Of a stretch of 49,473 nt of DNA, positions 1,667-49,401 are shown in pieces. The stretch is from a virus. The translations under genes and the position numbers were made by a program. Each line of letters begins with the position of its first letter. Within the stretch, counting starts at the first letter, position 1. Below the pieces are notes generated by a model. It was given only the letters and a program-made list of their open reading frames with translations, made no database searches and was not told where the DNA came from. The stretch is taken from positions 1 through 49,473 of IMG/VR virus record IMGVR_UViG_3300035691_000008, one strand, 5' to 3'.

Positions 1667-2241
1667 ACAATCCGGGCCGAGGACAGCACGGCAAGTTCAT
1701 CCGCACCAGCGAAACCGCCGAACGACAAGCCGAAGCACTCCGCCTCCGATCCCGCGGACTGTCCTACCAGAAGATCGCCGAAGAGCTGGGCTATAACGAC
1801 GCCAGCGCCGCCAGCAAGGCGATCAAGACCGCTCTCGACGCGACCATCCGCGAGCCCGCCGAAGACGTCCGCGCCCTCGAGCTGGGCCGGCTGGACGACC
1901 TGTACGCGAAGGTGTCGGACATCCTCGACCGGGAGCACTACGCGGTGTCGAACGGGCGGGTGGTGCGGCGGGGGATCGCGCAGCTGGACGAGGCCGGGCA
2001 GCCGGTGCTCGACGAGAAGGGCGAGCCGCGGCTGCGGTGGGTGGACCTGTTGGACGACGGGCCGGCGATGGCCGCGGCTGACCGTCTACTGAGGATTCAG
2101 GAGCGGCGGGCGCGGCTGCTGGGGTTGGACTCGCCGGTGAAGCAGCAGCTGGAGCTGTCCAATGTGGAGGATGTGGCGGCCGCGGTCGCGCTGCTGCGGT
2201 CGGCGCTCACCCCAGCCAGCGAGGGGGAGGGCGGAGCATGA
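1663..2241 (+). CDS. Terminase small subunit-like DNA-binding protein
   Basis: A 192-aa protein with ATG at 1663, preceded by a strong GAGAGGAGGAGG ribosome binding site. The N-terminal part (about 14-65) reads as a helix-turn-helix: RQAEALRLRSRGLSYQKIA followed by an Ala/Ser-rich recognition-helix region. A helical middle section with repeated LDDLYAK and RLLRIQERRARLLGL motifs would suit oligomerisation. Position one gene before the large terminase subunit, HTH plus helical body, and length all fit TerS, which recognises the packaging start. The codon spectrum shifts toward GTG/CTG/GCG after about 1880, which may mark a mosaic joint. TerS proteins diverge strongly, so the call leans on context. 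Confidence 0.75.
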   Translation: MNNPGRGQHGKFIRTSETAERQAEALRLRSRGLSYQKIAEELGYNDASAASKAIKTALDATIREPAEDVRALELGRLDDLYAKVSDILDREHYAVSNGRVVRRGIAQLDEAGQPVLDEKGEPRLRWVDLLDDGPAMAAADRLLRIQERRARLLGLDSPVKQQLELSNVEDVAAAVALLRSALTPASEGEGGA

Positions 2242-2570
2242 TCCGGCGCCTGCTTGGGCTCTGCGAGGGGCGGCACGGTGGGTTCACCGAGGTCCGCTGC
2301 CGGCTACGTCACGGCCACGCCGGCGACCACCGGTTCGGGATCGTCAACCTCGGCGGCCGGCTGACCATGGATCTCGACTATCCGATCAGGACGGTCCGCG
2401 AGCGACCGACCGAGCCGGCCACCCCGGTCCACAGGCCCTACGGAGGAGGGCACCCGATCGGCGGCCACGTCGCGGAGCCGACCGCGGGCCCCGCCGGGCC
2501 GAGCGGCTGTTCGAGCGCCCACCGGCCAGCGGTGTGCCCGCACTGCCCCGACCCAGACCACGGCCGATGA
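2238..2570 (+). CDS. Hypothetical protein between terminase genes
   Basis: A 110-aa protein, ATG 2238, overlapping both neighbours by 4 bp. The N-terminus has a Cys-rich segment with the CRLRHGHAGDH motif, a C-x(n)-H-x-G-x-H pattern found in many tiny actinophage proteins; a C-terminal CPHC adds a second potential metal site. The middle is Pro/Gly-rich and probably disordered. It may be an HNH-like remnant or a packaging accessory, but no catalytic triad is visible. Function unknown. Confidence 0.65.
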   Translation: MIRRLLGLCEGRHGGFTEVRCRLRHGHAGDHRFGIVNLGGRLTMDLDYPIRTVRERPTEPATPVHRPYGGGHPIGGHVAEPTAGPAGPSGCSSAHRPAVCPHCPDPDHGR

Positions 2571-32566: not shown

Positions 32567-32800
32567 TTTATTGGCGATCTATTGGACCGATCCGCATCGA
32601 CCGAAACCGACCGGGGTCGTCCCCCGTGCGAGGGGTTACCAGCTAGGACCGACCCAGGACGACCGGGGTCGAGAGCCGACAACACTTCGAAGGGTTGCTG
32701 GTTCGAGTCCAGCTGGAGGAGCTCCCACCCCAGGTCAGACGGCCTGGGGTTGTTCTTTTTGATCATCGTTTCTCCTGGTTATCGCGATTTAGTGGCGATC
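32567..32800. other. Phage attachment region (attP) with tRNA 3' end
   Basis: Between the integrase stop and the next leftward gene. Core: GCTGG-TTCGAGT-CCAGC (32697-32713) is a complete tRNA T-arm, followed by a 7-nt acceptor strand TGGAGGA and discriminator G (32714-32721). No matching 5' tRNA half exists in the window, as expected for a phage that rebuilds a host tRNA on integration. An intrinsic terminator follows. TTTATTGGCGATC (32567-32579) and TTTAGTGGCGATC (32788-32800) flank the core, and CGACCGGGGTCG occurs twice (32608-32619, 32660-32671); both pairs are candidate integrase arm sites. The tRNA species is not determined. Confidence 0.8.
32728..32760 (+). terminator. Intrinsic terminator downstream of tRNA end
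   Basis: CCCCAGG (32728-32734) and CCTGGGG (32743-32749) form a 7-bp stem with loop TCAGACGG, followed by TTGTTCTTTTT. This is the only textbook rho-independent terminator seen here. Carried with the tRNA 3' end, it would terminate the reconstituted host tRNA after integration, and it stops rightward transcription from running into the integrase gene. Confidence 0.9.
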
Positions 32801-34061
32801 AATTCGCCGAGTGCTTCGGCTGCCGGGGCGGGGCGATCGACTCCAGCGCCGCGGCCGCGCGCTGGTTGGTGGCCTTCGGCGCGACGTAGTGCCGCTCTGC
32901 AACCGCCTGGGTGTTGTCGAGCTGGTCGGCGATCTCGCTCAGCGACAGCCCGGCCTCGTTGAGCGTGCTGCTGACGGTCTTGCGCCAGACGTGCGAGGTC
33001 ACCCACTGATAGCCGCTCGCGTCGAGCGCCTCGCGCAGTCGCTTGATCGTGTTGGACGGGTCGAGCAGGCCGCCCTCCATCGAGCGGAACAGCAGCCCAC
33101 CGCCGGAGGCGAGTTTGCGCCGGGCGAACATTGGCGCGGACCACGTCGGCACCTCGTAGACCTTCACCCGCGCTTTGCCCTGCCGGCTGCTGCGCTTCTT
33201 CCGGCCGGGCATCCGCTGCAGACCCTGGCCGCTCGAGCGCACGACGTGCGCGTCCACGATGACGGTGGTGCGCTGCCCGTTGCGGCCGGGCGTGATCCCG
33301 GAGCCCTGCACCGCGAGGATCTCGCCGATCCGCACCCCCAGCGCCAGCATCGCCTCGACCAGGTCAGGCAGGTCCGACCACACCAGCGCACGCGTGCCCA
33401 GCCGGCGGCCCTTCTTGCGTACCGACTTCTCCGCCGCGAACCTCGCCAGGCGCTCGCGCATCTCATTGAGCTGGGCCAGTGTCATCGCTTCGACGTCCTT
33501 GCCGTCGTCGGCGCCGGCCAGCAGCCGCGACACCGATCGGATCGGGTTGGCCTCCAGCGCGCCGTGTCGCACGGCGACACCGAGCACGCCGGACAGGATC
33601 GTGCGCACGGTGCGAGCTGACGCCAGGCTGGTGCTGTCGCGGACGGCGCAGATCAGCTCGTCGTAGCGGGCGACGTCCAGCTCGCCGAGCCGCAGCTGCC
33701 CGATCTGGGGGAGCACGAACACGTTGAGCAGGCTGGTGTAGGTGCGCAGGGTGCCGGGGGAGAGGACCCGGTGCTGCACTTGGTTGTCGACGTGGTCGAG
33801 CCAGGCCTTGGCCGCCGTCTCGAACTTGGTGGCGCGGGTCATGGTGGCCGACCGGCTCTGCGTCTCAGTGACCAGGTCGGCCAGCCGCTTCTTGAGCGCG
33901 CGCTCTGCGCCGGTCTGCGAGGGGCCGCGGGCGTAGACGCGGCGGCTCTCGCCGTTGCGGAACCGGAAGTAGGTGTGGGCCTGCCATACGTCCGGGCCGA
34001 GCTGCTTGCAGGTGATCTTCCCGAAGGTGCCCGGCGGTGTGGGTGGCCTACCGCGCGCCAT
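32799..34061 (-). CDS. int: Tyrosine integrase
   Basis: A 420-aa minus-strand protein. Residues about 1-60 look like an arm-binding domain (FGKITCKQLGPDVWQAHTYF). Residues 75-170 are the SAM-like core-binding domain (TAAKAWLDHVDNQVQHRVLS; TLRTYTSLLNVFVLPQIG). The catalytic domain shows Arg244 (LGVRIGEILAV), His357-x-x-Arg360 (SHVWRKTVSSTLNEAG) and Tyr392 (AERHYVAPK). The usual second His in LGH is Asn here (LDNTQ), a change common in actinobacterial integrases. It recombines attP with a host tRNA gene. The stop codon is at the edge of attP. It is preceded by, and overlaps 14 bp with, a small membrane protein gene. Confidence 0.95.
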   Translation of the reverse strand: MARGRPPTPPGTFGKITCKQLGPDVWQAHTYFRFRNGESRRVYARGPSQTGAERALKKRLADLVTETQSRSATMTRATKFETAAKAWLDHVDNQVQHRVLSPGTLRTYTSLLNVFVLPQIGQLRLGELDVARYDELICAVRDSTSLASARTVRTILSGVLGVAVRHGALEANPIRSVSRLLAGADDGKDVEAMTLAQLNEMRERLARFAAEKSVRKKGRRLGTRALVWSDLPDLVEAMLALGVRIGEILAVQGSGITPGRNGQRTTVIVDAHVVRSSGQGLQRMPGRKKRSSRQGKARVKVYEVPTWSAPMFARRKLASGGGLLFRSMEGGLLDPSNTIKRLREALDASGYQWVTSHVWRKTVSSTLNEAGLSLSEIADQLDNTQAVAERHYVAPKATNQRAAAALESIAPPRQPKHSAN

Positions 34062-37585: not shown

Positions 37586-38484
37586 TGGCCGACATGATCA
37601 CCGAGCCTGGTGTGTACAGCGTGCCGGCCCAGGAGTACCACGCCGACCCGGTGCAGGGCGGGTCGCTGTCCTCGACCGGGGCGCGCAAGCTGCTGCCGCC
37701 GTCGTGTCCGGCGTTGTTCAAGCACTGGCAGGACAACGGCGGCCGGCCTTCACGGGCGTTCGACTTCGGTCACGCCGCGCACTTGCGCGTGCTGGGCACC
37801 GGACCGGAGCTGGTGCTGATCAAGGCGGACAACTACCGCACCAAAGCCGCGCAGCAGGCGCGAGACGAGGCACACGAGCAGGGTGCGGTGCCGCTGCTGC
37901 CCGATGAGCACGCCACCGTGCTGGCGATGGCCGCGGCATTGCGCGCGCACCCGGTCGCCGCCGCGCTGTTCGCGCACGGCTCCGGCCTTCCGGAGCAGAC
38001 GCTGGTATGGCGCGACACGGAGACGGGGGTGACGCGGCGGGCGATGTTGGACTGGCTGCCCGAGTCCCGCCCCGGCCGCGGCTTGATCGTCCCCGACTAC
38101 AAGACCGCCGCGCACGCCGACGTGCCCAGCTTCGAGAAGGCGATGGCCGACTACGGCTATCACCAGCAGGCCGACTGGTACCTCGACGGCGTGCGCGCGC
38201 TGGGGCTGTCGGACCTGGAGCCGGCGTTCGTGTTCGTGGTCCAGGAGAAGAACCCGCCCTACCTGGTCAACGTGATCCAGCCCGATGTGGTCGCCCTCAA
38301 GTGGGGCCACATCCAGAACGAGGCCGCGCTCGCCGTCTACCGGCAGTGCGTCGCCACCGGCCGCTGGCCCGGCTACAGCGACCGGGTCGAGCTGGGCGCG
38401 TTGCCCCGCTACGCCGAGTACCGCATCGAAACCGACTACGAACAGGGCGCCTACCGCGCCTCCAGGGACGTGACACCCCGATGA
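37585..38484 (+). CDS. PD-(D/E)XK exonuclease (RecE/Cas4-like)
   Basis: A 299-aa protein from ATG 37585 (GTG 37582 is an alternative). The early region GGSLSSTGARKLLPPSCPAL matches the opening of phage-type PD-(D/E)XK exonucleases. FDFGHAAHLRVLG gives the conserved G-x-x-x-H. RRAMLDWLP (Asp156) and IVPDYKTAAH (Asp171, Lys173) form the nuclease centre, and HQQADWYLDGV the Q-x3-Y motif. It should resect double-stranded ends to expose 3' strands for annealing by the next gene product. The pair overlaps by 4 bp. Strong family call; polarity inferred. Confidence 0.88.
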   Translation: MADMITEPGVYSVPAQEYHADPVQGGSLSSTGARKLLPPSCPALFKHWQDNGGRPSRAFDFGHAAHLRVLGTGPELVLIKADNYRTKAAQQARDEAHEQGAVPLLPDEHATVLAMAAALRAHPVAAALFAHGSGLPEQTLVWRDTETGVTRRAMLDWLPESRPGRGLIVPDYKTAAHADVPSFEKAMADYGYHQQADWYLDGVRALGLSDLEPAFVFVVQEKNPPYLVNVIQPDVVALKWGHIQNEAALAVYRQCVATGRWPGYSDRVELGALPRYAEYRIETDYEQGAYRASRDVTPR

Positions 38485-39665
38485 CCAGCCCCAGCACCGA
38501 GATCGCCCTTCCGCAACCGGCCGCCGCGCCGGCCAGGATGGGCCAGGCCACCGCCGTCGAGCAGGCCCGCGCCGTGGCCGAGGTCCAGGGCGCCATCATC
38601 GTGGCCCAGCAATGCCCCCGCGACACCCAGCTCGCGCTGAGCCAGATGCGTGACTCGTGCGCCCAGACCCACCTCGCGCAGAAGGCGTTCTTCCGCTACT
38701 CCCGCGGCGGCTCGCAGATCACCGGCCCCTCGGTGCACCTCGCCCGCGAGCTGGCCCGCTGCTGGGGCAACGTCCAGTACGGCGTCAAGGAGATGCGCCG
38801 CGACGACATCGCCGGCGAGTCGGAGATGCTCGCCTTCGCCTGGGACGTGCAGACCAACACCCGCACCGAGACCACGTTCATCGTGCCGCACAAGCGGGAC
38901 AAGAAAGGCGGCCCGGAGCGGCTGATCGACCTGCGCGACATCTACGAGAACAACGCCAACGCCGCGGCCCGCCGCGTGCGCGAGTGCATCTTCGCGGTGC
39001 TGCCGCCGTGGTTGACCGAAGAGGCGAAGGACCTGTGCCGCAAGACCAACGCCGACGGCGGCGGTGTCCCGCTGGCGCACCGGATCTCCGAGGCGCTGGC
39101 CAAGTACGCCGAGATGAAGGTGACCGGCGAGCAGCTGGAGCGCAAGCTCGGCCGCCCGACCGGGAAGTGGACCGGCGACGACGTCGCGGTGCTGATCACC
39201 ATCTACCGGTCGCTGATGGCCCGCGAGACAACCGTCGAGGACGAGTTCCCCACCACGCGGGTGACCGTCGAGGACATCCACTTGCAGGCCGCGCCGGTGG
39301 CCCCACCGGTCGCGCCGCCGGCCTCGGCCGGTGAGGACATCGTCGGCGCCAGCACGCACGGCCGGCTCAACGGAATCCCGGACCCACAGGGCGATGCGCC
39401 GAAGGCCGAGCAGCCGCTGGTCAACCGTGCGCAGCAGACCAAGATGCACGACCAGCTCGGCGAGCTGGGGATCAAGGAACGCGCCGACAAGCTCACCACC
39501 CTGGGCCTGCTGGTGCGGCGCACCCTGTCGTCCTCCAGCGACCTGACCCACCTGGAGGCCACCCAGGTCATCGACATTCTCGAACGCTGCCTGGCCGATG
39601 CCAACCCCGGTGGCGCTCTGGACTTCGTGCTCGCCGAGCTGGAGAACGCGGGCGGTGGGGCATGA
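38481..39665 (+). CDS. Candidate single-strand annealing recombinase
   Basis: A 394-aa protein, ATG 38481. Residues about 30-185 form a conserved block: EVQGAIIVAQQCPRDTQLAL, then RGGSQITGPSVHLARELARC, an AFAWDVQTNTRTETTF strand pair, then IYENNANAAARRVRECIFAVLPPWL. A helical C-terminal part (EQLERKLGRPTGKWTGDDVA; MHDQLGELGIKERADKL) follows a disordered linker (about 260-310). I do not see textbook RecT or Erf motifs, but direct coupling to the PD-(D/E)XK exonuclease and this organisation match actinophage annealing proteins. The role is inferred from that pairing. Confidence 0.7.
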   Translation: MTSPSTEIALPQPAAAPARMGQATAVEQARAVAEVQGAIIVAQQCPRDTQLALSQMRDSCAQTHLAQKAFFRYSRGGSQITGPSVHLARELARCWGNVQYGVKEMRRDDIAGESEMLAFAWDVQTNTRTETTFIVPHKRDKKGGPERLIDLRDIYENNANAAARRVRECIFAVLPPWLTEEAKDLCRKTNADGGGVPLAHRISEALAKYAEMKVTGEQLERKLGRPTGKWTGDDVAVLITIYRSLMARETTVEDEFPTTRVTVEDIHLQAAPVAPPVAPPASAGEDIVGASTHGRLNGIPDPQGDAPKAEQPLVNRAQQTKMHDQLGELGIKERADKLTTLGLLVRRTLSSSSDLTHLEATQVIDILERCLADANPGGALDFVLAELENAGGGA

Positions 39666-40051
39666 CCGCCACCACGAGGACGCGGCGTGCCTTTCACCCG
39701 AAGGCAGGCGCCCCGCTGAGCGAGCGGGAGATCCAGGTACTGAGGCGGATCAGCCAGGGCCACAGCAACGCCCGGATCGGCCGCAACCTCAGCGTGTCGG
39801 AGGACACCGTCAAGACCCACGTGCGGCACATCCTCGTCAAGCTCTGCGCCCGCGACCGCGCGCATGCGGTGTTCCTCGGCGTGCGCGCCGGGGTTGTGCC
39901 TGTCAGGCCCGCTCAGAGGCCGACCCCAGTCCCTCCTGCACCTGGCCGCATCCCGCCTCACATGTGGCGGCCGATCACCGACCAGCACAAGGCGCATTGC
40001 CCCGCCTTGCACGGTGAGAAGAGCTGCGCCTGCACCGCGGAGCGTGCCTGA
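39662..40051 (+). CDS. LuxR-type HTH DNA-binding protein
   Basis: A 129-aa protein, ATG 39662 overlapping the annealing-protein stop. Residues about 18-75 are a GerE/LuxR HTH: LSEREIQVLRRISQGHSNAR, IGRNLSVSEDTVKTHVRHIL, then CARDRAHAVFLG. There is no receiver or ligand-binding domain. The C-terminal 30 residues contain HKAHCPALHGEKSCACT, a possible zinc site. It may be an early-to-late regulator of phage or host genes. Stand-alone LuxR-type domains are known in actinophages. Confidence 0.85.
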   Translation: MTATTRTRRAFHPKAGAPLSEREIQVLRRISQGHSNARIGRNLSVSEDTVKTHVRHILVKLCARDRAHAVFLGVRAGVVPVRPAQRPTPVPPAPGRIPPHMWRPITDQHKAHCPALHGEKSCACTAERA

Positions 40052-40422
40052 TGACCTCGTTCTGGTTGATCCTGCTGGGCACGGTCATCGCCGTGATGGT
40101 CATCGGCTGGTGGTGGATGCGTCTGCACCCCGACGTCGACGAGACCGAGGAGCAGGCTGCCGCCGACCTGGATATCCAGGCGGCCAAGCACCGCGAGGTC
40201 GCGCTCCCGCCGCCCGGCCCCGCGCTCCAACTCCAGTCGGAGCTGTCGCCGAGGGACAACCTCGCTACGCGCGTGGCGTTGGCGAGGATCGTCGTGCCGC
40301 TGGCTGCGATCCCCAGGGGGAGGCGGACCCGCGAACAGCGGCGCCTGCTGGCCGCTCTGCGGTACACGATCCGATCCCTGCTGGCGCAGGCCTCCCGGAA
40401 CGACCAGGAGTCGATCCGATGA
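40051..40422 (+). CDS. Hypothetical N-terminally anchored membrane protein
   Basis: A 123-aa protein, ATG 40051 sharing one base with the upstream TGA. Residues 3-22 (SFWLILLGTVIAVMVIGWWW) are a membrane helix; the rest is cytoplasmic, acidic then basic (VDETEEQAAADLDIQAAKHR; AIPRGRRTREQRRLLAALRY). Followed by another membrane protein gene with overlap. No known family. Confidence 0.7.
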   Translation: MTSFWLILLGTVIAVMVIGWWWMRLHPDVDETEEQAAADLDIQAAKHREVALPPPGPALQLQSELSPRDNLATRVALARIVVPLAAIPRGRRTREQRRLLAALRYTIRSLLAQASRNDQESIR

Positions 40423-40640
40423 CCGCCACCAGGTTTGCGGTCGGCGCGGCGGTCGCCGTGATCGTCATCGCCGTGGCCGTGGTGGTCATCCTGCTGTGGG
40501 CCGAGGCCATCCACGACGACGACTGCGTCGGGTTCGACACCGACGACCAGGGCGGCGACGAGCCGGGGGAGACGGACGGCTGGTCCGAAGTGGACGAAGC
40601 CGCGCTCAACGACCTACTCATGAGAGGACATGGACCGTGA
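40419..40640 (+). CDS. Small membrane protein
   Basis: A 73-aa protein, ATG 40419 overlapping the previous stop. Residues 5-28 (RFAVGAAVAVIVIAVAVVVI) form one helix, followed by an acidic tail (FDTDDQGGDEPGETDGWSEV). Coupled to the next gene by GTGA. Pairing with 40051-40422 suggests a small membrane complex. Unknown. Confidence 0.65.
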   Translation: MTATRFAVGAAVAVIVIAVAVVVILLWAEAIHDDDCVGFDTDDQGGDEPGETDGWSEVDEAALNDLLMRGHGP

Positions 40641-40963
40641 CCCAACCGTCCACACAGGACACCACCAGCGAGGCGCAGGACTTCCTCGTTGTCATGGCCA
40701 ACCTGAACAAGGGCCGCACCGTGGCCGAGCTGACCACGAAAATGCAGGAGCTGGTCGCCGCAGTCATCGCGACCAAGAAGGGCGGCACCCTCAAGCTCGA
40801 CATCACGGTCACGCCGATCAAGAACGTGACCGACGACGAGGTCGAGGTCGCCGACCGCATCACCATCAAGCTCCCCACCCACGACCGGTTCGTCACCCGG
40901 TTCTTCGTGGACGACGGCTCCAACCTCGTCCGCAACCCCGTCAACCAAGCCAACCTGTTCTAG
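40637..40963 (+). CDS. Hypothetical protein upstream of DUF2303 gene
   Basis: A 108-aa protein, GTG 40637. It has a helix (VAELTTKMQELVAAVIATKK), then strands GTLKLDITVTPIKNV and ADRITIKLPTHDRFVTRFFV. A conserved alpha/beta appearance with a short C-terminal tail ending NQANLF. Homologues typically sit beside DUF2303 genes in phage early operons, but their role is unknown. Confidence 0.7.
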   Translation: MTQPSTQDTTSEAQDFLVVMANLNKGRTVAELTTKMQELVAAVIATKKGGTLKLDITVTPIKNVTDDEVEVADRITIKLPTHDRFVTRFFVDDGSNLVRNPVNQANLF

Positions 40964-40975
40964 GAGAACGCATCC

Positions 40976-41851
40976 ATGTCTCAGTCCCTTGACGCCGAGG
41001 TCGCCAGCCTTCCCTCCGCGTTCGAGACCGCCGCCGACCTTGGCCGCCGAGACTCCGGCCGAGTCCCCGATCCGTACTCGCTGGAGCCGGACACCAGCAT
41101 CGTCGTCGTCCGCGTCCGCAACGACGAGACCATCCAGACCCACGACCTGGAGCGCTACCTCGAGGTGCCGCGCACCACCCGGGGACACGCCGACCTGCAC
41201 GACCCCGACGGGTTCATCGCCTACGTCAACCGACTCTCCGACACCGAGCGCACCACCGTGTGGGCCGACGAGAAGGCGGGCACCATCACCGCTGTCCTCG
41301 ACGACCACGCAGACGCCGACGCCGCCGGCTGGCGCCAGCACACCGTCAAGCTCACCCTGCGCGCCGACGAGGACTGGCAGCGGTGGGTCGCGCTGGACCG
41401 CAAGCTCTCCTCCCATCAGGAGTTCGCCGACTTCATCGACGGCAACTACCACGTCATCACTCGCCCGGACGCCGCGACCATGCGCGAGGTCTCAACCTCC
41501 ATGCAGGCCAAGCGGAACGTCACCTTCAACAGCCAGGTTCGGCTGGACAACAACGATGTCCAGTTGACCTACGTCGAGAACACCACTGCCCAGGCCGGCA
41601 AGAACGGCAGCCTGGAGGTGCCCCGGGAGTTCGACATCCAGCTCAGCCCGTTCGTTGGCTGCGACCCGATCCCGCTCACCGCTCGCCTGCGCTACGCCAT
41701 CGTCGACGGACACCTGCGCCTCGGCTTTGTGCTGATCCGACCGGACCTCGCACGACTGGACGTGTTCGAGTCGACGGTTCGGAAGATCCACGACGAGCTG
41801 CTCGGCGACATCCCCGTGTTGTACGGCACCGCGCCCGCCTCGCTGCGATGA
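40976..41851 (+). CDS. DUF2303 family protein
   Basis: A 291-aa protein, ATG 40976 with TAGGAGAAC upstream. Features include HDLERYLEVPRTTRGHADLH, then FIAYVNRLSDTERTTVWAD, VKLTLRADEDWQRWVALDRK, FADFIDGNYHVITRPDAATM and EVPREFDIQLSPFVGCDPIP, the ordered blocks of DUF2303 proteins. These are widespread in phage early regions near recombination genes; the function is not established. Length is normal for the family. Confidence 0.85.
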   Translation: MSQSLDAEVASLPSAFETAADLGRRDSGRVPDPYSLEPDTSIVVVRVRNDETIQTHDLERYLEVPRTTRGHADLHDPDGFIAYVNRLSDTERTTVWADEKAGTITAVLDDHADADAAGWRQHTVKLTLRADEDWQRWVALDRKLSSHQEFADFIDGNYHVITRPDAATMREVSTSMQAKRNVTFNSQVRLDNNDVQLTYVENTTAQAGKNGSLEVPREFDIQLSPFVGCDPIPLTARLRYAIVDGHLRLGFVLIRPDLARLDVFESTVRKIHDELLGDIPVLYGTAPASLR

Positions 41852-42093
41852 CCAAGCAGCAGCCCCGGCCGCCGCACCCGTGCCCGTGCGGGTGCGGCAA
41901 CCAGATCCCGCACCACCTCCTGGCCTGCCAGGCGGGCTGGTACCTGCTGCCGCAGCCGTTGCGGCACCGCATCACCGGCGGCGGCGCCGGCAGGCTCACC
42001 GCGGTCTCCGAAGCCCTGACGTGGTACCGCGAACACGTCCGCGACGGCGCGCCGCTGCCGGCGTCCACACGGGACGGAGACGACCGTGGCTGA
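41848..42093 (+). CDS. Small Cys-rich protein
   Basis: An 81-aa protein, ATG 41848 overlapping the DUF2303 stop. CPCGCGNQIPHHLLACQAGW (12-31) is a compact C-x-C-x-C ... C motif common in tiny actinophage zinc-binding proteins, followed by LPQPLRHRI. The remainder is polar. Possibly a metal-binding adaptor; unknown. Confidence 0.7.
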   Translation: MTKQQPRPPHPCPCGCGNQIPHHLLACQAGWYLLPQPLRHRITGGGAGRLTAVSEALTWYREHVRDGAPLPASTRDGDDRG

Positions 42094-42463
42094 ACCTCAG
42101 CACCTGTTCGCTCCGCACCCCGCCGAGCCGGCGCGGTGCATGGCCTGCGGACTGTCCGACCCGGACGGCGACCACGTCCAGGTCGAGGCCGACCCCAACC
42201 CGCCCGCCGTCGCACAGTCCATCGTGGACGCCGTCACCGACTTGACCGGCGACCGGCGCACAGCCCGCGACACCGCCGCCGCCGTGCTCGGCGCGCATCC
42301 CGAGGTCGGGGCGTTCCGCGTCGGCAACTCGGCGATCGCCGACATGGACCTCATGTGCCTGATCGACGCCGGCCGATTCGTCCTCGGCGAGCTCGACCAG
42401 ACCACCGGGCGCCACCCGACGAGGACTGATCCGGAGATGCCCCCGCCAGCAGCTCAGAACTAG
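42086..42463 (+). CDS. Hypothetical protein with CxxC motif
   Basis: A 125-aa protein, GTG 42086, overlapping the upstream gene by 8 bp. LFAPHPAEPARCMACGLSDP gives a CxxC near the N-terminus; the rest is helical (AQSIVDAVTDLTGDRRTARD; AVLGAHPEVGAFRVGNSAIA). No recognised family. Confidence 0.65.
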   Translation: MAEPQHLFAPHPAEPARCMACGLSDPDGDHVQVEADPNPPAVAQSIVDAVTDLTGDRRTARDTAAAVLGAHPEVGAFRVGNSAIADMDLMCLIDAGRFVLGELDQTTGRHPTRTDPEMPPPAAQN

Positions 42464-42482
42464 ATCGAGGGAGGTGTGTCCG

Positions 42483-43106
42483 ATGGCTGACACCTGCACC
42501 GGCACGTTCCAGTGCCGGGCCGTCGAGCACGACGAGGACACCGACTGCGACTCGGTGATCTACCGCCCACCGCAGTGCGCACACCACGTGGACGTCGGGT
42601 TCTGTCGGGAGTGCGCGGCGAACCCGCCGCCCGGCTGGCAGCTGGTGGACTGCGACCAGGGCCACCCGGTGATGTGGATGCCCGACGACGACTGGTCCTA
42701 CCCGCCGCCGTGCATGTACTGCTGCTACGACCTGATCAGCAAGCAGCACGCGCCGTGCAGGCACGCTGGGCACGGCCGGTGGCGGCGCTGGAAGATCACC
42801 CACAAGCTCAGCCTGTGGTCCTACAGCATGGGCATCACCGTCGGTGGCGCAACGACGTGGGACGGGCATTGCAACGGCTGCCTGAACTCCGTCCGGTTCC
42901 GCGGGAAGCGGCACTACATCTTGGGGTGGCAGCGGGAGAAGTGGCGCTGCCTGTTGGTGATGCGGCACTGGCCGGGCGAGATGGTCGGCATGGGCCTATG
43001 TGGCAAGTGCGCGCCCTGGCCGTGCTGCGGCAGCACATTCGAAGCCCACACCGAGGACTGCCCCGAGCAGTTCGACCCTCGCGCGCTGGAGGTGTCGTGT
43101 GGGTAA
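42483..43106 (+). CDS. Hypothetical Cys/Trp-rich protein
   Basis: A 207-aa protein. ATG 42483 is chosen because GGGAGG lies about 10 bases upstream; an earlier GTG (42474) would be too close to that site. It has about 25 cysteines in several pairs (CMYCCY; HCNGC; CGKCAPWPCCG) with many His and Trp residues, implying two or more zinc sites. The middle (HKLSLWSYSMGITVGGATTW) is strand-rich. Possibly a nucleic-acid-binding multi-zinc protein; no family recognised. Confidence 0.75.
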   Translation: MADTCTGTFQCRAVEHDEDTDCDSVIYRPPQCAHHVDVGFCRECAANPPPGWQLVDCDQGHPVMWMPDDDWSYPPPCMYCCYDLISKQHAPCRHAGHGRWRRWKITHKLSLWSYSMGITVGGATTWDGHCNGCLNSVRFRGKRHYILGWQREKWRCLLVMRHWPGEMVGMGLCGKCAPWPCCGSTFEAHTEDCPEQFDPRALEVSCG

Positions 43107-43392
43107 GGCACAGCGAAACCGCGAGCAGCGCACCGCCGTGCGCTCAACCGGCGTGCGGGTCCGGGTCGACGGCGACCGGCTGGCCGGCATGCACATCCCC
43201 GAGCCTGTGCCAGGCCAGCACTCGTGGGGCATCTACGCCATGTGGCGGGTCACGCCGGCCACCTACCTCGCCGGCGAGTTCGAGCTGGACACCGAGAACC
43301 TCGTCACCGTCAGCCCGCTCGCGTGCCTGTGGTGCGAGCTGGGCTACTCGCCGGCGGTCGACGCCGCGCCGTGCGCAGGTGACCCGACATGA
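43099..43392 (+). CDS. Hypothetical protein
   Basis: A 97-aa protein from GTG 43099, with GGAGG six bases upstream inside the previous gene. A basic N-terminus (GKAQRNREQRTAVRSTGVRV) leads to strands (WGIYAMWRVTPATYL; GEFELDTENLVTVSPL) and a late CLWC pair. Unknown function. Confidence 0.65.
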   Translation: MGKAQRNREQRTAVRSTGVRVRVDGDRLAGMHIPEPVPGQHSWGIYAMWRVTPATYLAGEFELDTENLVTVSPLACLWCELGYSPAVDAAPCAGDPT

Positions 43393-44141
43393 GCACCAGC
43401 ACGTCCACCTACTACGAGAAGCTCGCGGCGATGGCGAAGCGGTTCGCCGGCGACACCGCCAACCACCAGATGACCGTGGCGCTCGACCAAGGCCTCTACC
43501 GGCACCTCAAGTTCCGCAACCCCAACCACAGCTGGCACTACTGGTTCGACCTGATCACCGTGCCGGGTGCGCTGATCTTCCAGGGCGACGGCGACTCGTT
43601 CGTGTTCCGCCGGCTGGAGGACATGTTCGAGTTCTTCCGCACCGCCAACGACACTGGCCGGCCGAACCTCGGGTACTGGGCGGAGAAGCTCACCAACGCC
43701 GGCGGCGAGCGGTCGGTGATGGTCTACGACCAGGACCTCCTGGACCAGCAGGTGCGCGAGGCCATCGCCGACCGCGCGGCGGACCTACCGGAGTTGGCCG
43801 GCGCCGTGCAGAGCGAGGTGCTCGACGAGCTGGTCGGGGACAGGACAGTCGACCTCAAGATCGTGGAGGACTTCCGCTACTGGGGCGCGGGTAAGACTCC
43901 GGAGTTCGAGTTCCACGATGTGTGGGAGTGGGGGGTCACCGACTACTCGTGGTGGTTCAGCTGGGCCTGCCACGCGATCGCATGGGGCATCGCGCAGTAC
44001 GACAGCCGCGGGTGCACCGACACGCCGCCGTCGACTCCCGGGCGCTCCGACGCCCCGGTGGCGGCTCCCGTTGAGGCGCCACCGATTCCCGTGCCCGCTC
44101 CTATGTACGTCACCGCGACCGTGGTCGGTGATGTCCTGTGA
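43389..44141 (+). CDS. Hypothetical protein
   Basis: A 250-aa protein, ATG 43389. The first 100 residues hold a distinctive block: YRHLKFRNPNHSWHYWFDLI, TVPGALIFQGDGDSFVFRRL, EDMFEFFRTAND. The middle is helical and acidic, and residues about 165-205 are Trp-rich (VWEWGVTDYSWWFSWACHAI). The tail is Pro/Ala-rich. I associate the HYWFDLITVPG-type block with conserved actinophage proteins of unknown function; no catalytic motif can be named. Confidence 0.75.
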   Translation: MSTSTSTYYEKLAAMAKRFAGDTANHQMTVALDQGLYRHLKFRNPNHSWHYWFDLITVPGALIFQGDGDSFVFRRLEDMFEFFRTANDTGRPNLGYWAEKLTNAGGERSVMVYDQDLLDQQVREAIADRAADLPELAGAVQSEVLDELVGDRTVDLKIVEDFRYWGAGKTPEFEFHDVWEWGVTDYSWWFSWACHAIAWGIAQYDSRGCTDTPPSTPGRSDAPVAAPVEAPPIPVPAPMYVTATVVGDVL

Positions 44142-44428
44142 CCGCCGACGCCGAGGTCGATTACATGCGGACCTACCGCGAGTTCTGGCAGGACATCGTC
44201 GAGACCGATGGCCAGCTCGACCTGGACAAGGTCGCCCGCGAACTCCACGACTTCAAGGGAATGCTCGAAGAGGTCCCCGGGATCGTCAGCCACGTCACCA
44301 ACGGCTTGCTATCCAAGCCGAACTACCGGGCAGCCAGCGTGATCACCGTCGCCGAAGAGGTCATGGAGGAACGCATCCAGACGGCGATCGCCGAGGCCAC
44401 CGGCTCGCCCGCTAAGGGGGCCGAGTGA
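44138..44428 (+). CDS. Hypothetical acidic helical protein
   Basis: A 96-aa protein, GTG 44138 (GTGA overlap). Nearly all helical: MRTYREFWQDIVETDGQLDL, DKVARELHDFKGMLEEVPGI, then VTNGLLSKPNYRAASVITVA and EEVMEERIQ. The pattern is typical of small phage regulators that bind other proteins. Unknown. It directly precedes the DpdA-like gene. Confidence 0.7.
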   Translation: MTADAEVDYMRTYREFWQDIVETDGQLDLDKVARELHDFKGMLEEVPGIVSHVTNGLLSKPNYRAASVITVAEEVMEERIQTAIAEATGSPAKGAE

Positions 44429-45231
44429 TCAACACCTACTACACGGGCACGCACGAGCCGTCGTGGCTGGCCAAGGTCGACATACCGCTGTTCGTGTCGC
44501 ACAGGCGGCTGACCTGCCGGCGCACCCTGCCACGCGCCACCTGCCACTGGGCGCTGGACTCCGGCGGGTTCTCCGAGCTGAGCCTGTACGGCACGTGGCG
44601 CACCACCCCGGCCGAGTACCACACCGCCGTGCGCCGCTACGACGAGGAGATCGGCGAACTCGGGTGGGCCGCACCGCAGGACTGGATGTGCGAGCCGATC
44701 ATGCTGGCGCGCACCGGCCTGACCGTCGCCGAGCACCAGCGCCGCACAGTGGACAACTTCGTGCTGCTGCAGGACTTGTGGGGCGACCGGATCACCTCGC
44801 CTTACATGCCGGTGCTGCAGGGCTGGGACCGTGACGACTACCTACGCTGCATCGACCTGTACGAGGCGGCCGGCGTCCAACTGGACGAGTACCCGGTCGT
44901 CGGGGTCGGTTCGGTGTGTCGCCGGCAGGCCACTACGGAGATCGTCACGATCCTGACCGCGATCAGGCAGGTCGACCCTGGCATGCCGCTGCACGGGTTC
45001 GGGGTGAAGGTCAAGGGCCTGCAGCAGGCCGCACACCTTCTGGAGTGCGCCGACTCGATGGCCTGGTCCTACGACGCCCGCCGTTCTGCCCCGCTGCGTG
45101 GCTGCACCACCCACCGCAACTGCGCCTCGTGCCTGCCCTACGCGTTGGCCTGGCGTGGCCGAGTGCTCGCCTCGATCGGCCAGCCGCCGGTTGATCAACT
45201 GGATCTGTTCCGGGAGGTGACGGCGGCATGA
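44425..45231 (+). CDS. DpdA-like (TGT-fold) deazapurine DNA modification protein
   Basis: A 268-aa protein, GTG 44425. It has the tRNA-guanine transglycosylase-like pattern of the DpdA family: YYTGTHEPSWLAKV, VPLFVSHRRL-type start, WALDSGGFSELSLYG (DSGGF matches the TGT substrate-binding Asp loop), WAAPQDWMCEPIML, VVGVGSVCRRQAT, LHGFGVKVKGL and ADSMAWSYDARR (catalytic Asp candidate). A C-terminal H-x2-C-x2-C (THRNCASC) could hold zinc. DpdA enzymes swap guanine in DNA for a 7-deazaguanine base. No preQ0 synthesis genes are seen here, so the host must supply the base if it is active. It is coupled to a DNA methyltransferase by a 4-bp overlap. Confidence 0.8.
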   Translation: MINTYYTGTHEPSWLAKVDIPLFVSHRRLTCRRTLPRATCHWALDSGGFSELSLYGTWRTTPAEYHTAVRRYDEEIGELGWAAPQDWMCEPIMLARTGLTVAEHQRRTVDNFVLLQDLWGDRITSPYMPVLQGWDRDDYLRCIDLYEAAGVQLDEYPVVGVGSVCRRQATTEIVTILTAIRQVDPGMPLHGFGVKVKGLQQAAHLLECADSMAWSYDARRSAPLRGCTTHRNCASCLPYALAWRGRVLASIGQPPVDQLDLFREVTAA

Positions 45232-46064
45232 GCATGCCCCCGTTCGCCTACTTCGGCGGAAAGACCAGCACGGCAGCCAGGATCGTGGGCCGGTTCCCGC
45301 CACATGGGCACTACGTTGAGCCGTTCGCCGGGTCGCTCGCGGTGTTGCTTGCCAAGCCGCCGTCGCTGATGGAGACCGTCAACGACCTCGACGGCGACCT
45401 GATGGTGTTCTGGCGGATGTTGCGGGACCAGCCAGCCGAGCTGGCGCGGGTGTGCCAGCTGACGCCGCACTCGCGAGCCGAGTGGGAGTCCAGCGCGGAC
45501 CTCGATGTGTCCGACCCCCTCGAGCGTGCCCGCCGGGTGTGGGTGCGCCTGACGCAGGGCCGCAGCGGCAGGCTGCTGCGCACCGGATGGCGCCACTACG
45601 TCGCGCAGGTCGGCGTGGGCACCGCCTTCCCGTCCTACCTGGACGGCTACGTCGACCGGATGGCCGCCGCAGCGCAGCGTCTGCACCACGTGACGCTGGA
45701 GTGCCGGCCGGCGCTGGAGATCATCGAACGGTACGGCGCCGGCGATGACGTCCTGATCTACGCCGACCCGCCCTACCTCGGCTCCGCGCGCGGCAGCTAC
45801 GACAAGGGCTACCGCCACGAGATGCGCGACGAGCAAGCCCACCGCGACCTCGCCGCCGCGCTGCACCGCTGCCGCGCCACCGTCGTGCTGTCCGGATACG
45901 CCTCCGACCTCTACGACCTCGAGCTGTACCCGGACTGGCACCGCACCACCTTCGTCTCCGGCACCGGTCACGGCGTCGACGGAGGCTCCAACCGCACCGA
46001 GGTCTTGTGGTCCAACCGTGCGGCCACTCCTGACCTGTTCACCATTGGGGAGGCGTCGGCATGA
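45228..46064 (+). CDS. DNA adenine methyltransferase (D12 class, Dam-like)
   Basis: A 278-aa protein, ATG 45228. Motif X is AYFGGKTSTA (7-16); motif I is YVEPFAGSLAVL (29-40); motif IV is the catalytic ADPPYLGS (DPPY 180-183); the region RGSYDKGYRHEM follows as usual. VVLSGYAS is motif V/VI. It should transfer a methyl group from S-adenosylmethionine to N6 of adenine at an unknown site. No restriction enzyme gene accompanies it, so protection of phage DNA is the likely use. It sits between the DpdA-like and HerA-like genes in one overlapping run. Confidence 0.9.
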   Translation: MSMPPFAYFGGKTSTAARIVGRFPPHGHYVEPFAGSLAVLLAKPPSLMETVNDLDGDLMVFWRMLRDQPAELARVCQLTPHSRAEWESSADLDVSDPLERARRVWVRLTQGRSGRLLRTGWRHYVAQVGVGTAFPSYLDGYVDRMAAAAQRLHHVTLECRPALEIIERYGAGDDVLIYADPPYLGSARGSYDKGYRHEMRDEQAHRDLAAALHRCRATVVLSGYASDLYDLELYPDWHRTTFVSGTGHGVDGGSNRTEVLWSNRAATPDLFTIGEASA

Positions 46065-47152
46065 CCGTGCAGAAACTCAAGGTCGAGCCAGCGCTGCACA
46101 TCGCGGACGGGTTCGACCTCGACGTCGACTACGTCGCCGGCGGCACCTTCGCCCTGCTCGCGAAGAAGGGCGCTGGCAAGACCTACACCGGCCGGGTCAT
46201 GGCCGAAGAGCTGTGGCGGGCGCGGGTGCCGTTCGTGGCGATCGACCCGATGGGCGCCTGGTGGGGGCTGCGGTCGTCGGCCGACGGCACCACGGGAGGT
46301 ATCCCGGTCGCGATCTTCGGTGGGGAGCACGGCGACGCCCCGCTCGAACGCACCGGCGGCGCGCTGATGGCCGACCTGGTCGTCGACGAGCGGCTGTCGA
46401 TGATCCTCGACCTGAAGGGCCTGGGCTCGCGTGCGGCGGAGCGGCAGTTCGCGCACGACTTCCTCGACCGGCTCTACCGCCGCAACCGCGAGCTGGTGCA
46501 CCTGTTCGTTGACGAGGCCGACCTGTTCGCCCCGCAGAAGCCACAGGCCGGCGACCAGCAGCTGCTGGGGGTGACCGAGAACATCGTGCGCCGCGGCCGC
46601 AACGCCGGCATAGGCATCACGCTGATCACCCAGCGGCCGGCGGTGCTGAACAAGGACGTCCTCACCCAGGTCGACGGGCTGGTCGCGCTGCGGATCACCG
46701 GCTACACCGACCGGGAAGCGATCGACGACTGGGTCCGCGGGCACGCCGACCAAGACGCGGCGCGGGAAGTCAAGGGCACGCTGGCCGGACTTGGCAACGG
46801 CGAGTGCTGGTGGTGGGTCCCCGAACTCGGTGTGCTGCGGCGGGTGCAGGTGCGGCGCGCCGGCACGTTCGACTCCTCGCCGACCCGCCGGCGTGGCGAT
46901 CAGGTGCGGGAGCCGCGCGGGTTCGCCGACATCGACATGGCCACCATCAAGGATCGGATGGCCGCCACGATCGAGCGCAGCCAGGCCGAGGACCCCAAGC
47001 AGCTGCGCGACGGCGGCGTCGTGGTGCAACGCCACCCGGCAGGCTCCGGCCTCGTTAATCCATGCCCAATCCACGGCTGGTACCGGCTGGTGTTGAGCGA
47101 CGCGAAAGCGATGTGCGCCTGCGGGCGAGGAGGAGAGACCGACCGTGGATGA
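46061..47152 (+). CDS. HerA/FtsK-like P-loop ATPase
   Basis: A 363-aa protein, ATG 46061. LLAKKGAGKTYTG (Walker A, Lys40), VHLFVDEADLFAP (Walker B, Asp151-Glu152) and GIGITLITQRPAVLNKDVLT (sensor region with Gln-Arg) are those of HerA-type hexameric translocases. The N-terminal segment before the P-loop is short. The C-terminus holds CPIHGW and CACGRGG, a possible zinc knuckle. HerA relatives drive DNA translocation with nucleases or act in defence complexes. No NurA partner is adjacent. Contiguity with the modification genes suggests a shared process, though a replication or packaging role is possible. Confidence 0.85.
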   Translation: MTVQKLKVEPALHIADGFDLDVDYVAGGTFALLAKKGAGKTYTGRVMAEELWRARVPFVAIDPMGAWWGLRSSADGTTGGIPVAIFGGEHGDAPLERTGGALMADLVVDERLSMILDLKGLGSRAAERQFAHDFLDRLYRRNRELVHLFVDEADLFAPQKPQAGDQQLLGVTENIVRRGRNAGIGITLITQRPAVLNKDVLTQVDGLVALRITGYTDREAIDDWVRGHADQDAAREVKGTLAGLGNGECWWWVPELGVLRRVQVRRAGTFDSSPTRRRGDQVREPRGFADIDMATIKDRMAATIERSQAEDPKQLRDGGVVVQRHPAGSGLVNPCPIHGWYRLVLSDAKAMCACGRGGETDRG

Positions 47153-47828
47153 CCAGATCCCCGACCAGATCCCCGACCGGATCGCTCGGCTGCCCAAGAA
47201 CAAAGCCGGCTACCCGATCCCGTGGTTCGTCGGCTATGTCGACGGCGAACCGGACTTCCGTGTCATCCGCGCGGGCGGCATCCGAGACGCGGTCCAGTTC
47301 GGGCGGTGTTGGGTATGCGGCCAACCACGCGGCAGCTACGCGGCCTTCACCATCGGCCCGATGTGCGCGGTCAACCGGATCTCCGCCGAGCCGCCAGCAC
47401 ACCGCGACTGCGCGATCTACTCAGCCACCCACTGCCCATTCCTGACCACACCGAACATGGTCCGCCGCGAACGACACATCCCGGAAGGTGCGACCAACCC
47501 GGCCGGGGTCATGATCAAACGCAATCCGGGTGTCGCCCTGGTGTGGATCAGCAAGCGCTGGAAGATGGGCCGCGTCGGCGATGGTGTGCTGTTCGACGTC
47601 GGCGACCCGCACGCCACGCACTGGTACGCCCACGGCCGAGAAGCCACCCGGGCCGAGGTGCTCGCGTCCATCGACTCCGGACTGCCCGCGCTGCGCGCCG
47701 TCGCCGAGAAGGACGGGCCGCTCGCCGTGGCCGAGCTGGAGTCCATGACCCTTCGGGCCATGGCGCTCCTACCACCAGAGGCCGCCGTGCTGCACGAGGC
47801 AGTCGCCCGCGGGGGCGGCCATGGCTGA
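47145..47828 (+). CDS. Conserved hypothetical phage protein
   Basis: A 227-aa protein, GTG 47145, overlapping the ATPase by 8 bp. It begins with a repeated IPDQ/IPDR stretch encoded by a 12-bp tandem repeat, then ARLPKNKAGYPIPWFVGYVD, CWVCGQPRG, TIGPMCAVNRISAEPPAH, RDCAIYSATHCPFL and RRERHIPEG. The Cys and His positions suggest a metal-binding domain. Similar sequences are frequent in actinophage early regions, but I know of no assigned function. Confidence 0.75.
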   Translation: MDDQIPDQIPDRIARLPKNKAGYPIPWFVGYVDGEPDFRVIRAGGIRDAVQFGRCWVCGQPRGSYAAFTIGPMCAVNRISAEPPAHRDCAIYSATHCPFLTTPNMVRRERHIPEGATNPAGVMIKRNPGVALVWISKRWKMGRVGDGVLFDVGDPHATHWYAHGREATRAEVLASIDSGLPALRAVAEKDGPLAVAELESMTLRAMALLPPEAAVLHEAVARGGGHG

Positions 47829-47991
47829 CAACACCCCGAACCCAGGCAGCCCACAAGCCCGAGAGCAGGGCTGCACCTGCCCGGTGATGGACAACGCCCG
47901 CGGCCTCGGCCGGGGCCGGGACGGCGCACGCAATGGCTGGGTGATCAACGAGGACTGCCCGCTCCACAGCAGGAAAGGCGGACCATCGTGA
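47821..47991 (+). CDS. 56-aa Cys-containing protein
   Basis: A short gene from ATG 47821 to TGA 47991. It overlaps the upstream gene by 8 bp and the downstream GTG by 4 bp. The product reads QGCTCPVMDNARGLGRGRDG then GWVINEDCPLHSRK: three cysteines and a His, a probable one-zinc peptide. The CTCPVMDN ... INEDCPLH pattern recurs in actinophage small proteins. Function unknown. Confidence 0.7.
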   Translation: MADNTPNPGSPQAREQGCTCPVMDNARGLGRGRDGARNGWVINEDCPLHSRKGGPS

Positions 47992-48434
47992 CCCTCGCCG
48001 CGTCGAACTACGAGATGGAGATCCTGCGCCTCATCGGCGCGACCACCACCATGACCGCGCTGCTCGCGGCCGGCCCGTGGTCGGCCGACGACGTGCTGAT
48101 CACCCTGCGCCGCAACGGTCTGCGCGCGACCGAGGGCGGCGCGATCATCAAGGGTGTCGACCCGGGCGTGCTCCTCGATGAGGCGCTGGAGTCACCGAGC
48201 CCGGTGGTGCGCCGCTACGCCGCCCGCGCGCAGGCGCTGCTGACCGAGATCAGCCGCCTGGACGCCGTCGAGGCCAGTGGTGAGCGGGCGGAGTTGTTGC
48301 GCCGCCAGCAACGCAACGCGGTCGAGCAGTGGATCGCGTTCCTGCGGACGGCGCGGGAAGACGCGCAGATCGAGCTGAGGCGGCTGCAGCAGCTGTACGG
48401 CAAGCGGCGCCACGCGCGGAACGAGGCGACATGA
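47988..48434 (+). CDS. Hypothetical helical protein
   Basis: A 148-aa protein, GTG 47988. The N-terminal 60 residues resemble a DNA-binding fold (YEMEILRLIGATTTMTALLA; SADDVLITLRRNGLRATEGG). The C-terminal half is a long coiled-coil-like helix (AQALLTEISRLDAVEASGER; LLRRQQRNAVEQWIAFLRTA). It precedes the WhiB-like gene. May be a regulator; not recognised. Confidence 0.7.
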   Translation: MTLAASNYEMEILRLIGATTTMTALLAAGPWSADDVLITLRRNGLRATEGGAIIKGVDPGVLLDEALESPSPVVRRYAARAQALLTEISRLDAVEASGERAELLRRQQRNAVEQWIAFLRTAREDAQIELRRLQQLYGKRRHARNEAT

Positions 48435-48694
48435 CCAGTCCTCGCCCTGCCTGCGACGGGGTCGCCACCGAGCAGTTCTACGGCCGCGACGGCGAGTCCG
48501 GCCAGGCCCTGTACACCCGCCTGCGTGAGGTGGCCCGCCGCTACTGCGCCGGCTGCCCGATCTACCGCGCCTGCCGGGCCCAGGGCTACCGGAACAACGA
48601 GCAAGGCATGTGGGGCGGGGTGTTCCACGCCCGCTACGGCGACGCCCGATACCGACACGTCGACCTGCTCACGACAACGACAGGGGGGCGCTGA
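48431..48694 (+). CDS. WhiB-like iron-sulfur transcription factor
   Basis: An 87-aa protein, ATG 48431 overlapping the upstream stop. Four cysteines (C8, C39, C42, C48) in the C ... C-x2-C-x5-C order bind a 4Fe-4S cluster, and GMWGG (59-63) is the family turn before the basic region. Wbl proteins exist only in actinobacteria and their phages, fixing the host phylum. Phage members can displace host WhiB regulators from the sigma factor. The gene shares one base with the initiator gene that follows. Confidence 0.92.
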   Translation: MTSPRPACDGVATEQFYGRDGESGQALYTRLREVARRYCAGCPIYRACRAQGYRNNEQGMWGGVFHARYGDARYRHVDLLTTTTGGR

Positions 48695-49401
48695 TGGTCG
48701 AGCGTGCTGTACCGACCGGCCGCTTCGAGTGGGAGCGGCTGGTGCGCCGGATGACGCTGCCCCGGCCGCAGAAGTTCCTGGCGTTCGTGCTCGCCACCTA
48801 CGCCGACCCTGACGGCACGCGCGTGCGCCCGGGTGTCGAGGTGCTCGCCGACGTGACCTGCCAGTCGGAGAAGAACGTGCGCCGGCACCTGGCCGAGCTG
48901 CGCGGGCTGCAGCTGATCGAGCTGGTGTCTCGTGGCGGTGGTCGCGGTGGTGCCGGTCGCACGAGTGAGTACCGGCTGACGATCCCGACCGATCTTCTGG
49001 ATCGGCTGGTGATGCTGGACCCGGGGGAGCGGTGCAACCCCACCGTTTCACCGGACACCGAGGTGTCCGGTCAAAGTGGACTGTCGCGAGTGGACGGCCC
49101 TGTGGATAACCCCGAATCACCGGACACCCAGATGACCGCCCAATTCGGTCGAGTCACCCCGATTGACCGGACATCTAACACCGTTACCAAACCCATTGAC
49201 CGGACATTTTCGCCGATTGACCGGACACCCAGATGTCCAACTACCAGCCACATACACCAACCACCTAGACCACCCACTCTGGTCACCACCCAACGCAACT
49301 CACGACCGCGCGCGCACGCCCGACCCGCACCCGTCCACCTCGCCGCTGCTCGAGCGGCTCAATGCCGAGGCCGCCCAGCTCGCGCCCGGGAGCCCTCGTG
49401 A
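48694..49401 (+). CDS. Winged-helix replication initiator candidate
   Basis: A 235-aa protein, ATG 48694 sharing the A of the previous TGA. Residues about 10-95 form a winged-helix domain typical of phage initiator or DnaD-like proteins: PRPQKFLAFVLATYADPDG, VEVLADVTCQSEKNVRRHLA (recognition helix), ELRGLQLIELVSRGG and SEYRLTIPTDL. From residue 110 the protein is low complexity with PIDRT and SPDT repeats, encoded by iteron-like DNA repeats. The layout recalls lambda O, where origin repeats sit inside the initiator gene. The C-terminal end continues to a TGA that overlaps the gene at 49398. Initiator role is inferred. Confidence 0.75.
   Translation: MVERAVPTGRFEWERLVRRMTLPRPQKFLAFVLATYADPDGTRVRPGVEVLADVTCQSEKNVRRHLAELRGLQLIELVSRGGGRGGAGRTSEYRLTIPTDLLDRLVMLDPGERCNPTVSPDTEVSGQSGLSRVDGPVDNPESPDTQMTAQFGRVTPIDRTSNTVTKPIDRTFSPIDRTPRCPTTSHIHQPPRPPTLVTTQRNSRPRAHARPAPVHLAAARAAQCRGRPARAREPS
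49050..49240. other. Candidate replication origin (iteron-like repeats)
   Basis: ATTGACCGGACA occurs three times (49162-49173, 49195-49206, 49216-49227), and its core ACCGGACA also at 49050 and 49119. ACCGGACACC-GA-GGTGTCCGGT (49050-49071) is a perfect 10-bp inverted repeat. Repeat spacings of 33 and 21 bp place copies near the same helix face. The stretch 49140-49230 is clearly richer in A/T than the genome. All lie inside the low-complexity part of the initiator gene. An origin is the best reading; an operator cluster is the alternative. Confidence 0.65.
49101..49109 (-). other. DnaA box
   Basis: TGTGGATAA is the exact complement of the consensus DnaA box TTATCCACA. It lies between two of the ACCGGACA repeats. 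A single match could be chance, but its location inside the repeat cluster supports origin function with host DnaA. Confidence 0.55.

Follow-up and report, generated by a model that had tools for sequence, protein, structure and literature searches.

DpdA-type transglycosylases, which are linked to 7-deazaguanines in DNA, are known from phages and from bacterial islands. Phages of the Rosebush type are self-sufficient, as they carry FolE, QueD, QueE and QueC together with a DpdA-type transglycosylase expected to insert preQ0; in Rosebush, which has its own preQ0 pathway, 28% of G is replaced (PMC6884629). Mycobacteriophages such as Orion possess a singleton DpdA and no preQ0 genes (group 3 in Hutinet et al., 2019; PMC6884629). 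The question of what phages with DpdA and without precursor genes do was left open in that study, and YhhQ was not correlated with any phage group (PMC6884629). In bacterial dpd islands (dpdA-K), YhhQ is present in ~9% and preQ0 genes in ~27% (PMC11888242). Here, a dpdA gene is described in the IMG/VR virus record IMGVR_UViG_3300035691_000008, a linear stretch of 49,473 bases from which part of the genome is possibly missing and which was analyzed at its full length (“the window”). Genes for a Dam-like adenine methyltransferase (Dam) and a HerA-like ATPase (HerA) follow, and the three genes are referred to as the trio (Table 1).

The window DpdA belongs to the same Pfam family as the singleton DpdA of Orion-type phages and is likewise found without preQ0 genes. 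It differs in its phage lineage, in the methylase and ATPase genes downstream and in a host that may make preQ0. In contrast to Rosebush-type phages, none of FolE, QueD, QueE and QueC is encoded in the window open reading frames (ORFs) scanned, the record being possibly incomplete. Bacterial dpd islands offer a parallel in their enzyme of tRNA-guanine transglycosylase (TGT) fold, in the 7-deazaguanine in their DNA, which is predicted for the window phage, and in precursor genes or a transporter that sometimes adjoin; unlike these islands, the window contains no DpdB, DpdC or restriction genes, and its DpdA is of the phage type, not the bacterial one.

The reading favored here, with moderate confidence, is that DpdA is a working guanine transglycosylase fed by the host, that its effect is restriction resistance, and that Dam and HerA are independent of it and became its neighbors via a shared early operon. 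DpdA is most likely a host- or salvage-fed guanine transglycosylase, with separate functions most likely for Dam and HerA. If DpdA acts like TGT, D210 would attack selected guanines at the deoxyribose, and once the base has left, a 7-deazaguanine from the host cell, either preQ0 or one of its derivatives, would fill the vacated position. In hosts that contain this base, phage DNA modified in this way would resist some of the host restriction enzymes. The methylase would mark adenines independently, and the ATPase, encoded in the early replication/recombination region, would be a DNA translocase that works on its own. The trio would thus be adjacent because a mosaic temperate phage carries these genes in one long early operon, and not as a machine.

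The identities proposed for the three genes in the original prediction are borne out, as the profile matches of all three proteins (PF23859, PF02086, and PF05872) exceed curated cut-offs. PHROG matches of the trio include phrog_1279 (E=4e-112), and the GC content at third codon positions of 0.90-0.91 corresponds to the pattern of high-GC3 coding genes. For DpdA, the match to PF23859 reaches 371 bits against a cut-off of 27 (E=4e-111), and identity to mycobacteriophage members is ~57-61%. Its AlphaFold (AF2) model, based on 113 window and locus sequences, has a predicted local distance difference test score (pLDDT) of 94.7, and the top PDB matches in Foldseek are TGTs (E 5e-7 to 3e-4, TM score 0.54-0.57 by query length). 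Searches of PDB by sequence or sequence profile did not recover TGT, and hhalign comparisons with four TGT-family sequences stayed below significance, the relation being recovered by fold search only. The motifs of DpdA follow the TGT order: DSGGF (D45), QDW (D86), LQG (Q132), VGVG (G162), LHGFG (H190), and ADS (D210); a zinc-type motif of Cys and His is located around residues 227-236. According to the motif positions, the Q-G-H-D spacing is 30/28/20, compared with 30/28/19 in a Nocardia TGT. Going by this motif order and the known active site of Zymomonas TGT, rather than by superposition, we take D45 and D210 to be the equivalents of the two catalytic Asp residues of that enzyme. Loss of the Asp residues in close homologues had been named in the original prediction as a refuting result; D45 is kept in 135 of 137 homologues and D210 in all 137. 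This near invariance speaks for selection on DpdA activity.

The genes that recur beside DpdA bear on its substrate. In a set of 297 Pseudonocardiaceae genomes, 62 of them DpdA-bearing, 43 of 52 matches to PF02592 share the strand of a DpdA gene and precede it by 16-137 bp. This arrangement is found in 41 of the 62 genomes, and five of the nine other PF02592 copies lie 2.3-6.8 kb from queC. A second set comprised 162 DpdA loci with their flanks, drawn from IMG/VR, GTDB genomes and named phages. Here, the hidden Markov model (HMM) of the transporter matched upstream of DpdA in 39 loci, mostly 0-30 bp away, and the transporter is present in close DpdA relatives of the window (L002/L019, L004). 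PF02592 corresponds to QPTR/COG1738, a family of preQ0/preQ1 transporters (PMC5372724, PMC11130926). The DpdA-linked members score ~35-55 bits against a cut-off of 27, and the copy in L043 falls under the stricter TIGR00697 cut-off; because these members are short and their family match is modest, transport of 7-deazaguanine is considered no more than likely. Genes for preQ0 synthesis likewise adjoin DpdA in viral contigs, in the orders dpdA-queC-queE (L079) and queC-queD-dpdA (L040) or with queC, queD, and queE upstream (L014). Taken together, the linkage to transporter and preQ0 genes points to 7-deazaguanines as the substrate class of DpdA.

The salvage-type PF02592-dpdA operon is not matched by the window. 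The transporter HMM gave zero matches, and the spot held by the transporter gene in many relatives is occupied by the small ORF at 44138..44428. QueC, QueD (PTPS), QueE (radical SAM), FolE, and YhhQ-type proteins were found in none of the 52 further ORFs of this possibly incomplete record, in agreement with the absence of preQ0 genes noted in the original prediction; since the record is linear and perhaps incomplete, such genes may lie outside it. Given a window with neither transporter nor preQ0 genes, dependence of the phage on host preQ0 is plausible. Host genomes provide a comparison: QueC is present in 28 of the 62 DpdA-bearing and in 28 of the 235 other Pseudonocardiaceae genomes (Fisher odds ratio [OR] 6.1, p=4e-8). 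Adjustment for genome size, possible for 275 genomes, gave an OR of 4.3 (p=2e-5), and exclusion of six genomes with QueC within ~100 kb of DpdA an OR of 3.4 (p=7e-4); a Prim-Pol control gene was near saturation (250 of 297 genomes) and served only for genome sizes. Amycolatopsis taiwanensis, the host of the closest DpdA, carries queC-queE-queD in tandem. An effect of DpdA that depends on precursor supply fits the QueC data, Orion and Rosebush together. The YhhQ/QPTR-type gene directly upstream of DpdA in most DpdA-bearing Pseudonocardiaceae genomes makes the precursor question directly testable, and actinomycete mobile DNA may carry a salvaged 7-deazaguanine mark. The window would be a variant without the transporter, in which modification should depend on the host, and the transporter-DpdA operon is a more interesting lead than the trio.

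Examples of the PF02592-DpdA pair, an apparent salvage operon on mobile elements, are found in Pseudonocardiaceae genomes (G182 contig 85, G273, and G066) and at the loci L002, L004, L043, L113-L131, and L150. In syntenic stretches of ~50 kb that resemble conjugative elements (L258-L266, in G066, G072, and G094), genes for a C5 methylase, the transporter and DpdA are grouped close to one end, and a gene of the QueC family lies close to the opposite end. The stretch in G066 also has a gene for a DUF6884 protein, the family of DpdC (PMC11888242), near its QueC. The dpdA-queC-queE tandem lies on a viral contig of 102.9 kb (L079/L276), with a HerA-like ATPase gene ~5 kb off on the opposite strand. 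A QueC-QueE-QueD cluster in Actinokineospora diospyrosa (L273) is accompanied by a divergent TGT-like protein, an apparent ATP-grasp protein and an apparent oxygenase, and is perhaps a biosynthetic cluster using preQ0.

Several observations weigh against a host-fed, working DpdA. Phages of ~68 kb that match cluster B1, the cluster of phage Orion, carry the same DpdA family at 57% identity. The association of QueC with DpdA in Pseudonocardiaceae was calculated without regard to phylogeny. No association was found in Streptomycetaceae, where the two genes occurred in 17 and 29 and both together in 3 of 298 genomes, which is no more than expected (not significant). Among 50 DpdA-bearing actinomycete genomes, full QueC is missing in 31 and full-length in 19, and a canonical TGT is present in only three, as read from match tables. 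The frequent lack of QueC and the missing excess in Streptomycetaceae indicate that many DpdA copies are retained in hosts that do not make preQ0. In addition, proteins of the QueC family can serve other functions (PMC13329287), and the DNA of Mycobacterium phage Orion, which carries DpdA only, contains no 7-deazaguanine in M. smegmatis, a host without preQ0 genes (PMC6884629).

The Orion result supports the strongest alternative, in which DpdA would be idle in the natural host, either kept from earlier hosts or used only when precursor is available, with virion DNA normally unmodified. The window without transporter and preQ0 genes and the many DpdA-bearing genomes without QueC are in line with this scenario. 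It is nevertheless judged rather unlikely, as the almost invariant catalytic residues, the recurrent coupling of DpdA to transporter and preQ0 genes and the QueC association in Pseudonocardiaceae all argue against an idle enzyme.

The original prediction had suggested that the trio could be a combined protection system; in such a system, the motor would help to place both modifications along the phage DNA. The genes do overlap by 4 bp each at the positions it gave, which makes translational coupling probable; as the genes flanking the trio overlap just as tightly, these overlaps tell little about joint function. Conserved linkage, set in advance as the test of the combined system, is absent: DpdA, Dam, and HerA occur together in none of the 162 DpdA loci and at no other locus in a set of 84 HerA loci. 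A Dam homologue was found in DpdA flanks once, in Streptomyces tuirus (L150), where the order is Dam, transporter, DpdA. A HerA homologue occurs in the DpdA region of two viral contigs (L026/L237 and L079) without a Dam-type homologue, and a Dam homologue lies within range of HerA in two of the 84 HerA loci (L197, L202). DpdA and HerA relatives are mostly found apart. For several close relatives, the search was extended to the entire record, and the three genes meet in none of these; in one (L003), a Dam at 64% lies ~16 kb from DpdA. Among the relatives found, synteny with the window is greatest for a prophage of Amycolatopsis taiwanensis (L086/L001). It shares the integrase, two early genes and DpdA (68-71%) with the window, arranged in the same order, and its record contains neither a HerA nor a Dam homologue. 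As far as searched, the three-gene cassette is peculiar to this record.

A weaker form of the association survives. In a non-redundant set of 47 DpdA loci, the nearest two genes to the left and to the right of DpdA (113 ORFs, each ≥150 aa) comprise six DNA methyltransferases that belong to three Pfam families, along with three PF02592 transporters, two QueC and two proteins of the PAPS-reductase type. None of these is among the families listed for 97 ORFs located four to five genes off, in which single-member families may be hidden. DpdA therefore recurs beside DNA methyltransferases of unrelated types. This proximity and the occurrence of HerA/FtsK-type ATPases in modification-based systems (structural neighbors TdpA and DndH, PADLOC match to mad8) agree with a combined system. 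The lack of any other locus with all three genes, the syntenic prophage without Dam and HerA, the equally tight flanking overlaps, and the loss of the C-terminal domain of HerA render it improbable. A two-mark camouflage, in which 7-deazaguanine and methyladenine would be placed with the aid of a HerA-type motor, is very doubtful; the papers searched describe no such coupling.

The core of the window ATPase starts at ~residue 11 and has intact Walker motifs, and alignment and model agree in the absence of the N-terminal HAS barrel. Four full-length relatives of 566-628 aa possess a C-terminal variable stretch and winged-helix-like repeats, whereas the window protein ends without the winged-helix part and carries a short Cys/His-containing tail instead, as a result of truncation or recombination. 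The AF2 model has a pLDDT of 86.9, with values <50 in the tail from residue 318, and adopts the HerA/FtsK fold in Foldseek (HerA-NurA, E=2e-11). The PADLOC model mad8 (E=2.9e-11) spans much of the protein and several defence HerA models match it as well; the match to NF040819 remained far under the cut-off. The ATPase core, Walker motifs and fold are shared with HerA-NurA, SIR2-HerA, TdpA, DndH, and mad8 of MADS, from which the window copy differs in its length of 363 aa and in lacking the HAS barrel, the C-terminal winged helices and a partner nuclease or effector gene. Relatives of the compact ATPase are encoded in at least 129 viral-contig stretches, with no described function in the literature searched, and their recurrent upstream neighbors (L179-L257) resemble, by eye and without a profile, ParB-type and DUF5131-type proteins. 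A role of HerA as packaging motor is ruled out by the canonical terminase large subunit at 2162-4279.

The methylase contains motif I as VEPFAG (residues 30-35) and matches phrog_56 (E=9e-59) and, in PDB, the DpnII methylase (E=1.4e-7). Its score against TIGR00571, the Dam subfamily, is 59 bits and thus below the cut-off of 115. GATC is not depleted in the window (355 observed vs. 345 expected), so that a GATC specificity is not supported. DpnM/Dam D12 methylases of actinobacterial prophages are close, with 57% identity to those of Mycobacterium abscessus prophages; the window copy differs in adjoining dpdA. Least probable is the view that methylase and ATPase are left over from a MADS-like or HerA-effector defence module carried by a prophage, while DpdA protects the phage itself: the mad8 and defence HerA matches of the ATPase and the Type II methyltransferase models matched by the methylase in the PADLOC scan are in keeping with it, yet defence partner genes (Sir2, DUF4297, NurA, other mad genes) are absent among the window proteins scanned, and both genes belong to the early region rather than occupying a lysogeny cargo position.

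Table 1. Features of the trio and its surroundings in the window.
Feature	Position	Strand	Remarks
Tyrosine integrase (temperate phage)	32799..34061	-	phrog_1 E=3.5e-27; homologue in Amycolatopsis taiwanensis prophage L086
Co-directional early region: RecT-like, DUF2303, DpdA, Dam, HerA, WhiB, replication initiator	38007..49401	+	trio inside
Small ORF, no assigned function	44138..44428	+	4-bp overlap with dpdA start
dpdA, DNA guanine transglycosylase, phage DpdA family	44425..45231	+	268 aa; PF23859
DpdA putative catalytic D45	44557-44559	+	motif DSGGF
DpdA putative catalytic D210	45052-45054	+	motif ADS
D12-class (Dam/DpnM-like) N6-adenine DNA methyltransferase	45228..46064	+	278 aa; PF02086 E=7e-19
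Methylase DPPY	45765-45776	+	
Compact HerA/FtsK-type ATPase	46061..47152	+	363 aa; PF05872 HerA_C E=7e-9
ATPase Walker A GAGKT	46169-46183	+	
ATPase Walker B DE	46511-46516	+	
Gene of no assigned function	47145..47828	+	8-bp overlap with end of HerA gene

The window has a GC content of 70% and encodes a temperate siphovirus gene set comprising terminase, portal, major head, tape-measure, endolysin, tyrosine integrase and WhiB; it represents a temperate siphovirus of an actinobacterium. The capsid protein, used as a route to whole-phage relatives, gave zero matches in IMG/VR and only 30-37% identity to named phages. Homologues of the gene downstream of HerA are found close to DpdA in L002 and close to HerA in L189 and L204, with differing gene orders. 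Across the whole window, the tetranucleotide CTAG is strongly under-represented, with 9 occurrences observed and 35 expected.

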